From Solirubrobacterales bacterium (GTDB lineage Bacteria > Actinomycetota > Thermoleophilia > Solirubrobacterales > 70-9): a DNA stretch of 49,082 nt. Of the stretch, positions 40,423 to 45,340 are shown one piece after another. The notes beneath the pieces are model-generated. The model was given only the letters and a program-made list of their open reading frames with translations, was not told the DNA's origin and made no database searches. The translations under genes and the position numbers were made by a program. The DNA lies in assembly GCA_013821475.1 (NCBI GenBank), contig JACDGU010000002.1, positions 1 to 49,082 of the forward strand. Reading direction: 5' to 3'. Numbering within the stretch: the stretch's first letter is position 1; each line of letters opens with the position of its first letter.

Positions 40423-41436
40423 CTAGGAGCCGGTGGCGATCTCGGCCGGCTCGCCGCCGGGCATCCAGTGGGCCTCGACCGGCGGCGGCGCGTCGCGCAG
40501 GAACCGCTCGGCGTCGAGGGCGCCCATGCAGCCGGTGCCGGCCGCGGTGACGGCCTGGCGGTAGGTGTGGTCGACGACGTCGCCGACGGCGAAGACGCCG
40601 CCGAGGTTGGTCCGGGTCGAGCCGGCCTCGGTGACGATGTAGCCGTCCTCGTCGGTGTCGACCTGGCCCTTGACGACCTCCGAGCGTGGGATGTGGCCGA
40701 TCGCGACGAAGGCACCGGTCGCCTCGAGCTCCTCGGTCTCGCCGGTCTCGGCGTTGCGCAGGCGGATCTTCTCCAGCTTGCCGTCCTCGCCGGAGACGAA
40801 CTCCTCCGGGATGAACGGCGTCTTGAAGTCGATGTTCTCCTTCTCGCGGGTGCGGTCGAGCATGATCTTCGAGGCGCGGAACTCGTCGCGACGGTTGATC
40901 ACGGTCAGCTCCTCGGCGTACTTGGAGATGAAGATCGAGTCCTCCATCGCCGAGTCGCCGCCGCCGACGACGATCACCCGGTGGCCCTTGAAGAAGGCGC
41001 CGTCGCAGACGCCGCAGGTCGAGACGCCGCGACCTCCGAGCTCCATCTCGCCGGGGATGCCGAGCCTTTTCGGCTCCGCCCCCATCGCCAGGATGATGCT
41101 CTTGGCGTGGTACTCCTCGTCGCCGAGGAAGACCTTCTGCACGCCGCCGTCGGAGAGCTCGACCCGGTCGACGTCGTCGGGGACGAAGCGGGTCCCGAAG
41201 CGCTCGGCCTGGGCGCGGAACCGGGTCATCATCTCCGGGCCCATGATCCCCTCGGGATAGCCCGGGTAGTTCTCCACGTCGGTGGTGTTCTGCAGCTGCC
41301 CACCCCACTGGAACCCCTCGAAGAGGAGCGGCTCGAGGTTGGCGCGCGCGGTGTAGAGCGCGGCCGTGTAACCGGCCGGTCCACCGCCGATGATGATTAC
41401 GTTCTCGACCTTCATGTTCTCAGTCATATCCGCCAT
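40423..41436 (-). CDS. trxB: Thioredoxin-disulfide reductase
   Basis: IIGGGPAGYTAALYTARA, VSTCGVCDGAFFKGHRVIVVGGGDSAMEDSIFIS, GVFAVGDVVDHTYRQAVTAAGTG. Confidence 0.96.
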   Translation of the reverse strand: MADMTENMKVENVIIIGGGPAGYTAALYTARANLEPLLFEGFQWGGQLQNTTDVENYPGYPEGIMGPEMMTRFRAQAERFGTRFVPDDVDRVELSDGGVQKVFLGDEEYHAKSIILAMGAEPKRLGIPGEMELGGRGVSTCGVCDGAFFKGHRVIVVGGGDSAMEDSIFISKYAEELTVINRRDEFRASKIMLDRTREKENIDFKTPFIPEEFVSGEDGKLEKIRLRNAETGETEELEATGAFVAIGHIPRSEVVKGQVDTDEDGYIVTEAGSTRTNLGGVFAVGDVVDHTYRQAVTAAGTGCMGALDAERFLRDAPPPVEAHWMPGGEPAEIATGS

Positions 41437-41584: not shown

Positions 41585-42352
41585 TTGAGCATGGAAGACG
41601 CCAGGGGCGCATACGACAAGTTCGCGCCGATCTACGACCAGTTCAACCACCTCAACGACTACGAGCTCTGGACCAGCGTGCTGCTCGCCGAGCTGGAGAA
41701 GCACGGCATCCGAAAGGGCCGGCTGCTCGACGTCGGCTGCGGCACCGGCCGGGCCTTCGAGCCGATGCTGAACCGGGGCTGGGAGGTCCAGGGCTGCGAC
41801 CTCTCGGAGGGGATGCTGGCTGAGGCAGGGCGAAAATTCGGCGAAACGGTCGAGCTCGCCGTCGCCGACGTCCGCGATCTGCCCGTCTTCGGCGAGTTCG
41901 AGCTGGTCTGGGCGCTGAACGACGTCGTCAACTACCTGACCGGGGAGGGCGAGCTCGAGCGGGCGCTGACCGGGATGTGCGCAAACCTGGCACCCGGCGG
42001 ACTGCTGCTCTTCGACGCCAACTCGCTCGGCCTTTTCCAATCGAGCTTCTCGAGCGGGATCTCGGAGGCGATGAGCTCAGGTCCCTGGAGCTGGCACGGC
42101 CTGGCCGAGGAGGTCGTGCCCGGGGGCACCTACGAAGCGCAGGTCTCCGGCGACGGGGTCGAGATGCACGTCCACCGACAGCGCCACTTCCCGGTCACGG
42201 AGATGGTGGCGAAGATGGAAGCCGCGGGGCTCGAGCCGGTAGCGACGGTGGGCCAGCAGGAGGTCGACTCCCAGATCCTGCTCACATCCCCGCCCGATGA
42301 AATGCGCGACTACAAGGTCGTCTACATAGGCAGGCAGTCCAGCGAGAAGTAA
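41585..42352 (+). CDS. Class I SAM-dependent methyltransferase
   Basis: LLDVGCGTGRAFEPMLNRGWEVQGCDLSEGMLAEA; start TTG 41585 or ATG 41591. Confidence 0.92.
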   Translation: MSMEDARGAYDKFAPIYDQFNHLNDYELWTSVLLAELEKHGIRKGRLLDVGCGTGRAFEPMLNRGWEVQGCDLSEGMLAEAGRKFGETVELAVADVRDLPVFGEFELVWALNDVVNYLTGEGELERALTGMCANLAPGGLLLFDANSLGLFQSSFSSGISEAMSSGPWSWHGLAEEVVPGGTYEAQVSGDGVEMHVHRQRHFPVTEMVAKMEAAGLEPVATVGQQEVDSQILLTSPPDEMRDYKVVYIGRQSSEK

Positions 42353-42353
42353 T

Positions 42354-42394
42354 GCGGGCCGGCCTCCTTCCTGGATGGAGGAGGGCCGGCCCGC
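42354..42394. terminator. Strong stem-loop, plausibly bidirectional terminator
   Basis: gcgggccggcctcct...aggagggccggcccgc; 11 bp + bulge + 4 bp between convergent methyltransferase and mini-ORF. Confidence 0.7.
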
Positions 42395-42407
42395 TAAGCA
42401 CTGCTAG

Positions 42408-42470
42408 CTAGACGCCCTTGCTCGTTGCGATCGACGGAATGACCTGCTTGCTGCTGGTGATGATCTTCAC
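42408..42470 (-). CDS. 20-aa mini-protein (V/M)KIITSSKQVIPSIATSKGV
   Basis: GTG AAG ATC ATC ACC AGC AGC AAG CAG GTC ATT CCG TCG ATC GCA ACG AGC AAG GGC GTC TAG; purine-rich gggagggggtga upstream; in-frame TGA just upstream of GTG; 18/20 codons end in G/C. Confidence 0.55.
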   Translation of the reverse strand: MKIITSSKQVIPSIATSKGV

Positions 42471-42480
42471 AGCTGCTCAC

Positions 42481-42600
42481 CCCCTCCCATAATCAGCTAA
42501 CCCGGCCGGGAAAACCGGCCCCGTTGACCGATTTAATCGACTCCAGCGGTCGGATTAATTCCGGTATGACTGGAATCAAGTGGTCAGGATGTGCGCTACG
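42481..42600. promoter_or_regulatory. Divergent regulatory region with hairpin and operator-like repeats
   Basis: ggccgg-gaaaa-ccggcc hairpin; related motifs ccgatttaatcg and tcggattaattcc; gaccg...cggtc inverted pair. Confidence 0.5.
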
Positions 42601-42635: not shown

Positions 42636-43229
42636 ATGCCAGCAGTTAAGAGTCGTGGTGCGATCAAGTCGACTCTCGCGGCGATCGCCGCGCACCCGAC
42701 GAGGGTGACCTGCTTCATGGTCTTCGCCGAACGCACCGCAAGCCCGAACGAAATCGCCCGGGAGCTAGGTCAGGACGTCACCCACGTCAGTTATCACGTC
42801 AAGAAACTGCTCGAACTGCAGGCGATCGAGAAGGTCTCCGAGCAGCCTGTGAGAGGCGCGATCGAGCACTTCTACCGCGCGATCGAGCGGCCCATTGTCA
42901 GCGGAGAAGACTGGGCAGGCCTCTCCCGGGAGGAACGTGCCGTGATCAGCCAGGAAATCCTTCAGCGGCACGTCGCCGATCTCTGTCAGGCCCTCGAGTC
43001 CGGCACCTTCGACGACCGAATCGACCGCAGCGTGATCCGGGTACCAGTGCTGCTCGACGAGGAGGGTTTTCGCGAGCTCCGCGACCTGCACGACGAGACC
43101 TACGAGCGCACGCTGGAGATCCAGGCCAAGAGCGCGGAACGGATGGCCAGCGATTCCGAGGTCGAGCAGATCCAGACGATGTCGACGACGATGTTCTACC
43201 AGCGAGCCAAACGGCCCAACCGCCGCTAG
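42636..43229 (+). CDS. ArsR-like winged helix-turn-helix regulator
   Basis: RBS gagaggag before ATG 42636; HPTRVTCFMVFAERTASPNEIARELGQDVTHVSYHVKKLLELQAIEKVSEQPVRGAIEHFYRA. Confidence 0.88.
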   Translation: MPAVKSRGAIKSTLAAIAAHPTRVTCFMVFAERTASPNEIARELGQDVTHVSYHVKKLLELQAIEKVSEQPVRGAIEHFYRAIERPIVSGEDWAGLSREERAVISQEILQRHVADLCQALESGTFDDRIDRSVIRVPVLLDEEGFRELRDLHDETYERTLEIQAKSAERMASDSEVEQIQTMSTTMFYQRAKRPNRR

Positions 43230-43254: not shown

Positions 43255-44385
43255 TCAGCCGACGACGGGCTCGAGATCCGACTTGGCGCTGCCGCCGCGG
43301 TCGATGGGCAGCTCGCTCGTCTCCCAGCGGTGGACCGTCTTGCGGAGCTGGAAGAAAGCGACGATCCCCGCCGGGATCGGCAGCCAGAAGGCGACCAGGC
43401 GGTAGATCAGGATCGCCGGGAAGACGGTCTCCTCGGGTAGGCCGAAGAGCACGAAGGCGCCGATCATCCCGGCGTCGACCGCGCCGACCCCGGCCGGCGC
43501 CAGCGGAAAGAGGTTGGCGACCATGCCGAGGAAGAAGCCCTGGACGACGACCGCGAGCGGGATGTGAACGCCGAAGGCGTGGAAGGAGGCCCAGAGCACG
43601 CCGATGCTCGCCGCCCAGAAGCCGGCGGCGCTTATCACCGCGAGGCCGCCGCGCGAGGGATGGGCGAAGAGGCCGACGGCGAAGCGGAACCCTTCGCCGA
43701 GCGTGGCCGGGATCTTCGCCGCCGTACTGAGGAAGGCCTTGGCTTTCTCGCCTTGGGCGAACGGCGCCAGCCGCCGCTCGACGTCGGCGGGGATAAGGGC
43801 GATCAGGACGCCCAGCGCCAGCAGCCCGCCGGCGACCCCGGCCGGGATGACAGTCAGCTCGACGTCGTCGGCGCCGTTGAGCACGTGGGTCCTCAGCAGG
43901 ACCCCGAAGAGGATCAGCGCCAGCGGATAGAAGGCGTAGTGGAGGCTGACGAAGGCGACCATCCGCCGGGCGACGTCGCGGCGGGCCATGCCGGCTTTGC
44001 GCAGCGCCCAGTAGGTGAGCGCGACGCCGCCGGCGCCGCCGGCCGAGAAGAGCAGCGTCGCCGCCACCCCGGCCATGTTGATCTCGTAGGTCTCAAGCCA
44101 GGTCAGCCGCAGCGCATCGCCGCCGACCACGGCTTTGAAGAGGGCGATGTAGGTGGCGTAGGCAAGGATGTTGAAGCCGATCGCGACCGCGATCCAGACC
44201 GGGTCGGCGTCGCCGAGCTTGCTCATCGCGCCGCTGAGACCGACCAACTTGGGGAAGAGGAAGTAGATGCTGCCGAGCAGCACCAGGACGACTACGACCG
44301 TCTGTACCAGCCGCCGCATGGTGAACAGCGGCATCTCGACGGCCCGGTCTCCGTTCGCCGAGTTCCCCGAGTCTTCCTGAGACAC
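43255..44385 (-). CDS. Lysylphosphatidylglycerol synthase TM-region (UPF0104) family membrane protein
   Basis: Multi-TM; LVGLSGAMSKLGDADPVWIAVAIGFNILAYATYIALFKAVVG, PLAPAGVGAVDAGMIGAFVLFG. Confidence 0.87.
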   Translation of the reverse strand: MSQEDSGNSANGDRAVEMPLFTMRRLVQTVVVVLVLLGSIYFLFPKLVGLSGAMSKLGDADPVWIAVAIGFNILAYATYIALFKAVVGGDALRLTWLETYEINMAGVAATLLFSAGGAGGVALTYWALRKAGMARRDVARRMVAFVSLHYAFYPLALILFGVLLRTHVLNGADDVELTVIPAGVAGGLLALGVLIALIPADVERRLAPFAQGEKAKAFLSTAAKIPATLGEGFRFAVGLFAHPSRGGLAVISAAGFWAASIGVLWASFHAFGVHIPLAVVVQGFFLGMVANLFPLAPAGVGAVDAGMIGAFVLFGLPEETVFPAILIYRLVAFWLPIPAGIVAFFQLRKTVHRWETSELPIDRGGSAKSDLEPVVG

Positions 44386-44395
44386 CCCTGGGAAG

Positions 44396-45340
44396 CTACC
44401 CGCTTGCGATTCTCTCCAGGCGCTGCAGGGTCTCGCTGACTGTGCGAACCAACGGCTCGACCAGGGGCTCGCCGCGCCTGACGACCGCAACCAGCAGCGC
44501 TCCGGCGGCGAGATCGGTGACGTAGTGCTCGCCCAGGTAGACGAGGCCGAAGCCGAGCGTCGAGGCGTAGGCCCAGCCCAGCGTCCCCTCGACCTTGCCG
44601 GCTTCCGAGAGCGAGATCGCGGCCGAGACCGAGGTCGCGAAGTGGAGCGAGGGCATCGCCGCCCAGGGGTTGCCGCCGAGCGCGTCGTACATCTTCGGCC
44701 AGGCCGAACCCCAGGTTTCCTCGCCGACCTCGACCATGATCCGGCGCACCTCTTCGCCGGTCAGGCCCTGCTCGGAGGCCCACCAGGGCGGCGCCGTCGG
44801 CACCGCGAAGTAGACGGCGCAGCCGATGTCGAAGATCGCCGCCAGCTGGCGGGCGGATTTCGGGAAGCGGCGGTTGTGGCGGAGCATGATCGTCGCCAGG
44901 GCGACGTAGGGCTCGAAAAACCAGAGCCAGTGGGTCCAGGTGATGACGCGGTTGAAGACGGCGACTCCCGGCATCCGGGCGAGCCGGCGCTGCAGGCGGG
45001 TGCTGGGGAGCGAGCCGGCGCCGATGATGCGGTCGGTGACGATCGGGTAGCCGCTGCGCAGGCGACTGCGCAGGCGCTCGGGATTGTCGAAGGGAAGCTC
45101 GTGGACCATGATGAAGCCCCACATCTGGAGGGCGAACATGGCGACGTCGCGCTTCCTCGACCGCGGTGCCAAAACCGCGATCCCGAGCGGCCCACAGGCG
45201 CAGGCGGCGACCGTCACCGGGGCCGGAATCCGCAGCCGCTTGCGGATCAGCGGGACCGCGACCGCGGCGCCGATCGCGGCACCGGCACCGGCCCTGACGG
45301 CAAGGCGAAGCGCGGGTGATGGCCGGGGGCGCCTCTTCAT
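44396..45340 (-). CDS. PAP2/inositolphosphotransferase-like membrane protein
   Basis: MPSLHFATSVSAAISLSEAG, LGEHYVTDLAAGALL. Confidence 0.88.
   Translation of the reverse strand: MKRRPRPSPALRLAVRAGAGAAIGAAVAVPLIRKRLRIPAPVTVAACACGPLGIAVLAPRSRKRDVAMFALQMWGFIMVHELPFDNPERLRSRLRSGYPIVTDRIIGAGSLPSTRLQRRLARMPGVAVFNRVITWTHWLWFFEPYVALATIMLRHNRRFPKSARQLAAIFDIGCAVYFAVPTAPPWWASEQGLTGEEVRRIMVEVGEETWGSAWPKMYDALGGNPWAAMPSLHFATSVSAAISLSEAGKVEGTLGWAYASTLGFGLVYLGEHYVTDLAAGALLVAVVRRGEPLVEPLVRTVSETLQRLERIASG

Follow-up and report, generated by a model that had tools for sequence, protein, structure and literature searches.

A family of 17–20-residue peptides encoded divergently from ArsR-like winged-helix regulators in uncultured Solirubrobacterales and some phages

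Introduction

A 49,082-nt stretch of DNA from a Solirubrobacterales bacterium (contig JACDGU010000002.1, positions 1 to 49,082; hereafter the window) carries a 20-codon open reading frame (ORF) divergent from a gene for a winged-helix regulator. Is this ORF a gene, and what would its product have to do with the regulator? Genes of this kind are missed by routine annotation, being far too small. ArsR-like proteins are best known as metal sensors and, to our knowledge, it is nearly always in Bacillota and their phages that peptide signals with intracellular receptors have been found. The signals of Actinomycetota are typically small molecules (PMC10075063).

Results

The peptide gene and its surroundings

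The following features were identified in the window.

40423-41436, minus strand: thioredoxin-reductase-like protein, assigned by eye from the sequence
41585-42352, plus strand: SAM methyltransferase (Pfam)
42354..42394, no strand assigned: strong GC-rich hairpin without a T-run, 3' of the peptide stop (RNA fold z -4.5 for 42350-42540)
42408..42470, minus strand: peptide gene of 20 codons, GTG start at 42470, TAG stop at 42408; one of a family of peptides 17-20 aa long
42477..42488, minus strand: Shine-Dalgarno element GGGAGGGGGTGA of the peptide gene; the same element precedes family members
about 42504..42520, minus strand: GC hairpin GGCCGG-TTTTCC-CGGCC in the peptide 5' leader (GAAAA loop on the plus strand), found by RNA folding
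42530..42577, no strand assigned: putative operator block GATTCCAGTCATACCGGAATTAATCCGACCGCTGGAGTCGATTAAATC, TTCCAG...CCGGAAT...GCTGGA, with inverted TTCCAG/CTGGAA-type elements, aligned and conserved at orthologous loci
42636..43229, plus strand: winged-helix regulator of 197 aa, with an ArsR-like DNA-binding domain (about residues 1-88) and a C-terminal domain of two long helices (about 89-197)
43255-44490, minus strand: LPG_synthase_TM protein (Pfam)

The peptide gene reads GTG AAG ATC ... GTC TAG and specifies (M/V)KIITSSKQVIPSIATSKGV; its start lies 165 nt from the ATG of the divergent regulator gene. An in-frame TGA is situated nine bases 5' of the start, within the Shine-Dalgarno element, so that the frame has no upstream extension, and G or C occupies 18 of the 20 third codon positions. 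The minus-strand GTG...TAG frame had been proposed in a first-pass annotation together with its purine-rich Shine-Dalgarno element, the in-frame stop, the third-position bias and the downstream hairpin, all of which were recovered on the sequence. Since the convergent methyltransferase gene (41585-42352) also ends at this hairpin (42394-42354), it may serve both genes and is likely their common terminator. Two further features described at the same time fared less well: the weak repeat within the peptide is a coincidence, as relatives do not keep it, and the GAAAA-loop hairpin of the leader, although present, is not conserved in orthologues and is probably incidental. A search against Rfam returned no RNA family at the locus and only three tRNAs across the window.

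A peptide family divergent from regulator homologues

Comparisons were made on assembled genomes, mostly metagenome bins (assembly names: uncultured Solirubrobacterales, isolate 70-9, SZAS, RYN, Chersky). A divergent ORF of 17-20 codons was found beside 67 of 124 distinct full-length regulator homologues from uncultured Solirubrobacterales, starting about 180-420 nt from the regulator and showing the same anatomy, with a near-perfect Shine-Dalgarno element. Scores over the 124 loci were bimodal, with a clear gap between peptide-positive and peptide-negative loci; weak-score calls were retained only where Shine-Dalgarno element, length and position agreed. The 67 peptides share the motif M-[KRT]-[IL]-(variable)-P-x-x-[SA]-[IVT]-x-K-[GA]-x-stop and comprise 19 aa (n=57), 18 aa (n=8), 20 aa (n=1) or 17 aa (n=1), with Lys at position -3 in 67/67 and Pro 8th or 9th from the end in nearly all. 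A peptide is also seen at locus L038, where the leader is partly a run of N.

A position-specific scan of 110 loci yielded 58 ORFs with a score of at least 8 and none on reversed sequences; all 53 peptide ORFs lying no more than 400 nt from a regulator were divergent from it (0 on the reversed-sequence null). Since Lys or Arg at -3 was rewarded by the scoring, ORFs were chosen a second time on Shine-Dalgarno strength alone. At loci whose best ORF had a Shine-Dalgarno score of at least 9, Lys was found at -3 in 50/50 and a length of 18-20 aa in 49/50, against Lys at -3 in 16/63 of the weaker-scoring picks. Between pairs of similar peptides, pS was 0.33 and pN 0.12, with all four codons used at the conserved Pro; judged by this pattern, the peptide codons are under purifying selection. 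Perfect-stem hairpins (at least 8 bp, within 80 nt of the stop) follow the gene at 25 of the 67 loci, with 2 expected.

Loss of the codons in relatives with conserved flanks, named in the first-pass annotation as a refutation, is the opposite of what was found: codons and length are kept over dozens of loci with different genes on either side. By this conservation in relatives the 20-codon ORF goes beyond chance; it is, on comparative grounds, a genuine gene, and the peptides form a coding gene family. A chance ORF with a good Shine-Dalgarno element, an idea that owes what appeal it has to a length of 20 codons that is by itself too short to judge, is refuted by family-wide conservation on chromosomes and virus contigs and has a negligible probability.

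About half of the regulator homologues, in whole clades, are without a peptide, and the regulator fold thus does not require one. On the regulator tree, loci with a peptide group together (10 changes, 41 when shuffled). At L073, two peptide genes stand in tandem beside one regulator (2299-2358 and 2433-2492, both on the plus strand; MTIKPCPTVIPSLSLLKNR and MTIKPCSIVAPLMSSFKSR). At L074, L076, L080, L084 and L089, the peptide gene is placed between two regulator genes and is divergent from one of them; the second lies just 3', in the same direction as the peptide gene, and belongs to a clade without a divergent peptide of its own.

Distribution in genomes searched without regard to the regulator

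Whole genomes were searched, blind to regulator position, with a profile of 47 peptides (A1); for the contig scan, alignment A2 was too diverse and was replaced by A3. Among 201 genomes of the order, matches at E <= 0.05 occurred in 17 genomes: all 12 of the same genus as the window, two from a sister genus of that family, G047, and a further two (G021 and G083) whose weak matches fell in long frames away from any regulator and were rejected as false. Among 299 genomes of the class, every match at E <= 0.01 fell within these two genera. A phylum-wide search gave 0 matches at E <= 0.005, in a sample in which no positive control rang either. Over the hundreds of genomes searched, the family peptide was found almost exclusively beside the regulator.

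Matches outside the profile-building set were again divergent from regulators (G001:C30, G004:C66, G007:C320, G008:C6 and G009:C36). The peptides at G008:C6 (MKIVVVAQTVPAVSTVKNG) and G009:C36 (MKIGTIQTAVPAVSTHKNG) face regulators that are tandem fusions of two copies. Fused regulators of two full copies (about 420 aa), all accompanied by a divergent peptide, were noted at L203:243-1520(-), L204:1833-3116(+) and L096:1512-2768(+); being natural single-chain dimers, they are of use in structure work. One exception was met at L202 (G002:C146:45663-45716), where the peptide VLQINGKQPTMPTAAIGKGS has a Shine-Dalgarno element and no regulator in the surrounding 3.4 kb; it looks genuine despite the missing regulator. 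A similar peptide at G047:C130:9919 is 1.4 kb away from a regulator.

Copies on phage contigs

In a virus collection (IMG/VR contigs G756-G759), a full-length regulator is encoded on four contigs, each of which also has the peptide behind a near-perfect Shine-Dalgarno element (L209 VQMTEIKTIWPSIRVTKPA, L210 MIIHKTPTTIPAVQIGKQG, L211 VTIKPCPTVAPLLSSFKTR, L230 VKITISEQIVPSTQIAKSV). The contigs encode terminases (G758, G759), an integrase (G757), portal and major head proteins (among G757/G758 proteins), and RecT, exonucleases and an endolysin (G756). The phage peptide at L211 is similar to the chromosomal peptides at L069 and L073, and that at L230 to the peptide at L003, a locus orthologous to the pair in the window. 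On G757, the integrase is about 2 kb away from the regulator-peptide module; the vicinity of a phage integrase is a typical site of lysis-lysogeny control. A plasmid collection held no match to the regulator.

The regulator

Pfam detected only weak winged-helix domains in the regulator (HTH_20/HTH_24/MarR_2). A structure prediction (mean pLDDT 88) showed a winged helix of the ArsR-like type and, after it, two long helices that make up a C-terminal domain. Profile matches were obtained with 4g6q, 1uly, 2jsc and 1y0u, and the nearest solved structure by both profile and fold is Kfla_6221 (4g6q; Foldseek E 1.9e-6), whose alignment extends across most of the C-terminal domain. On its winged-helix fold and sequence similarity, the protein belongs to the ArsR/SmtB winged-helix superfamily; assignment as an ArsR/SmtB metalloregulator was rejected at 23.5 bits, against an NCBIfam cut-off of 55. 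Its DNA-binding domain resembles, by fold and profile, those of ArsR/SmtB proteins with a C-terminal extension (4g6q Kfla_6221, 2cwe/1uly PH1932 and 2p4w), for which we know of no partner peptide. Within its genus, each genome has 8-19 regulator homologues.

Joint divergence of peptide and C-terminal domain

Over 95 orthologue-like pairs, chosen for at least 60% identity of the regulators, identity is 90% for the DNA-binding domain, 63% for the C-terminal domain and 48% for the peptide, in which residues 4-10 are the most variable. Over 126 related pairs, peptide identity tracks the C-terminal domain at constant DNA-binding domain (partial correlation 0.63), the converse value for the DNA-binding domain being -0.21; these pairs share ancestry and are non-independent, so that the correlations are support for, not proof of, a C-terminal partner. 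Over all paralogue pairs, peptide and regulator identity are almost uncorrelated below 45% regulator identity. ArsR-like relatives that lack the C-terminal domain (virus contigs L212, L216 and L227-L229, and others in genomes) have no clear peptide. This absence, the identity gradient and the partial correlations point to the C-terminal domain, the presumed receptor, as the likely partner of the peptide.

The divergent promoter region and neighbouring genes

Six orthologous loci retain the TTCCAGC/GCTGGAA block between the two genes, where it is better conserved than the peptide coding DNA. The AT-rich motif copies of the first-pass annotation correspond to this block (42577-42530), which aligns with the conserved block of the orthologues. 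A clear conserved block is limited to the window's orthologue group; as a universal operator motif, TTCCA/TGGAA is only moderately enriched across all 67 divergent regions. A third partner gene (transporter, protease or maturase) was sought around the 67 loci and none recurs, the clusters found being orthologue-specific neighbours, shadow ORFs or further HTH genes. The methyltransferase is found beside a peptide gene elsewhere at L040 only.

Discussion

The earlier idea of a peptide-regulator module is upheld in its main form by the pairing and the amino-acid conservation at dozens of loci. Pairing, divergent orientation, common motif and length, purifying selection, phage carriage and the joint divergence of peptide and C-terminal domain are shown by these comparisons, and from them we infer peptide binding by the regulator and autoregulation. 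It is probable, in our judgement, that these peptides are a new family forming a two-gene module with the divergent regulator, and that each would bind, as cognate ligand, to the C-terminal domain of its regulator, with autoregulation at a promoter common to both genes. A regulator dimer would bind the conserved inverted elements between the genes and control both promoters; the peptide, or a processed product of it, would bind the C-terminal domain and alter DNA binding, which would complete a feedback loop. The conserved peptide ends (M-K-I and P..S..K) may engage parts that all the receptors share, while the variable middle (residues 4-10) would set the specificity of each pair.

The arrangement recalls the RRNPP(A) systems (Rap/Phr, PlcR/PapR, Rgg/SHP and AimR/AimP arbitrium), in which tiny peptide genes likewise adjoin genes for cytosolic regulators, many paralogous pairs occur per genome and temperate phages carry copies. 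Such multiplicity has been described in Paenibacillus (PMC7425212), and receptors are by definition TPR proteins with 250-500 aa (PMC10075063). The peptide gene does adjoin the receptor gene here, as a divergent neighbour in 53/53. However, the regulator is a 197-aa ArsR-like winged-helix protein with no TPR in the model, and the peptides lack, by hydropathy, the export signal (Sec or PptAB) of RRNPP(A) propeptides; moreover, RRNPP(A) systems are those of Bacillota, whereas the present module is from Actinomycetota. Membership of RRNPP(A) was rejected on receptor and export signal, and that of arbitrium (AimR/AimP/AimX), despite the phage-borne copies, on a receptor that is not a TPR protein. 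Leaderless signals are known as well (PMC10518010): the communication peptides of the SIP/LCP type, acting with RopB, likewise have no leader, a strong Shine-Dalgarno element and a gene often divergent from that of the receptor (PMC10518010). An LCP such as that of S. salivarius, however, is a hydrophobic peptide of 8 aa whose receptor is an Rgg-family TPR protein, whereas the peptides described here have 17-20 aa, are mostly polar, contain a Lys that never varies and a Pro that hardly does, and accompany an unrelated receptor; lacking both the hydrophobic peptide of about 8 aa and the Rgg/RopB receptor, the module was not placed with LCP/RopB. It is a separate family, outside RRNPP, arbitrium and LCP, and may by analogy have a similar way of working.

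Within the favoured reading of a cognate ligand, an exported and re-imported leaderless pheromone with paralogue-specific codes and a purely intracellular effector carry about equal weight. The first of these leads to a broader proposal, which we offer tentatively: a cell-to-cell peptide communication of Actinomycetota unrelated to RRNPP, in which leaderless 17-20-aa peptides would act on ArsR-like receptors, with many parallel codes per genome and temperate-phage copies that are perhaps arbitrium-like. In the second, itself a version of the favoured reading, the peptide would stay inside the cell as a feedback effector of its own regulator, a micro-antirepressor or co-repressor. Hydropathy revealed no export signal or hydrophobic segment in the peptides (mean about 0.12; mean best 11-residue window 0.85; one maximum of 2.1), no exporter or peptidase is nearby, and the two genes form a self-contained loop with the operator-like block in between, all of which suits such an effector. 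Yet the many paralogous pairs per genome, the fast-changing middle segment and the closely similar peptides at phage and chromosome loci fit intercellular signalling better, and taken by itself the intracellular version is less likely than not.

It is improbable that the peptide is not the ligand of the regulator but an output under its control, be it a RiPP precursor, an antimicrobial or another effector. Regulator-adjacent peptide genes are common in RiPP clusters, and the invariant Lys at -3 could serve as a modification or cleavage site. Against this, no recurrent maturase, protease, immunity or transport gene was seen at the loci, Cys and aromatic residues are few, and peptide divergence tracks the C-terminal domain of the regulator. 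A RiPP precursor locus was rejected on the same ground, no modifying enzyme, protease or transporter being recurrent around the 67 loci, whose neighbours vary by orthologue group.

The leader-peptide attenuator and the small RNA with an incidental mini-ORF, both entertained in the first-pass annotation, draw on the strong hairpins that flank the ORF in the window, but are very improbable given conservation at the amino-acid level with synonymous change, a protein motif better conserved than the coding DNA, a transcript that often terminates at its own hairpin and the lack of a consistent same-strand downstream gene.

In a search of open-access papers, no description of such a peptide-regulator module was found, nor of a peptide signal of this kind for Actinomycetota; the family is large, occurs in soil actinobacteria and some phages, and is apparently undescribed. 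Its features suggest a peptide switch, possibly one for cell-to-cell signalling. If this is true, signalling by peptides with intracellular receptors would have been invented independently here, in several copies per genome and on phages, and ArsR-like proteins would have a new kind of ligand. The module offers a clear experimental starting point in little-known soil bacteria.
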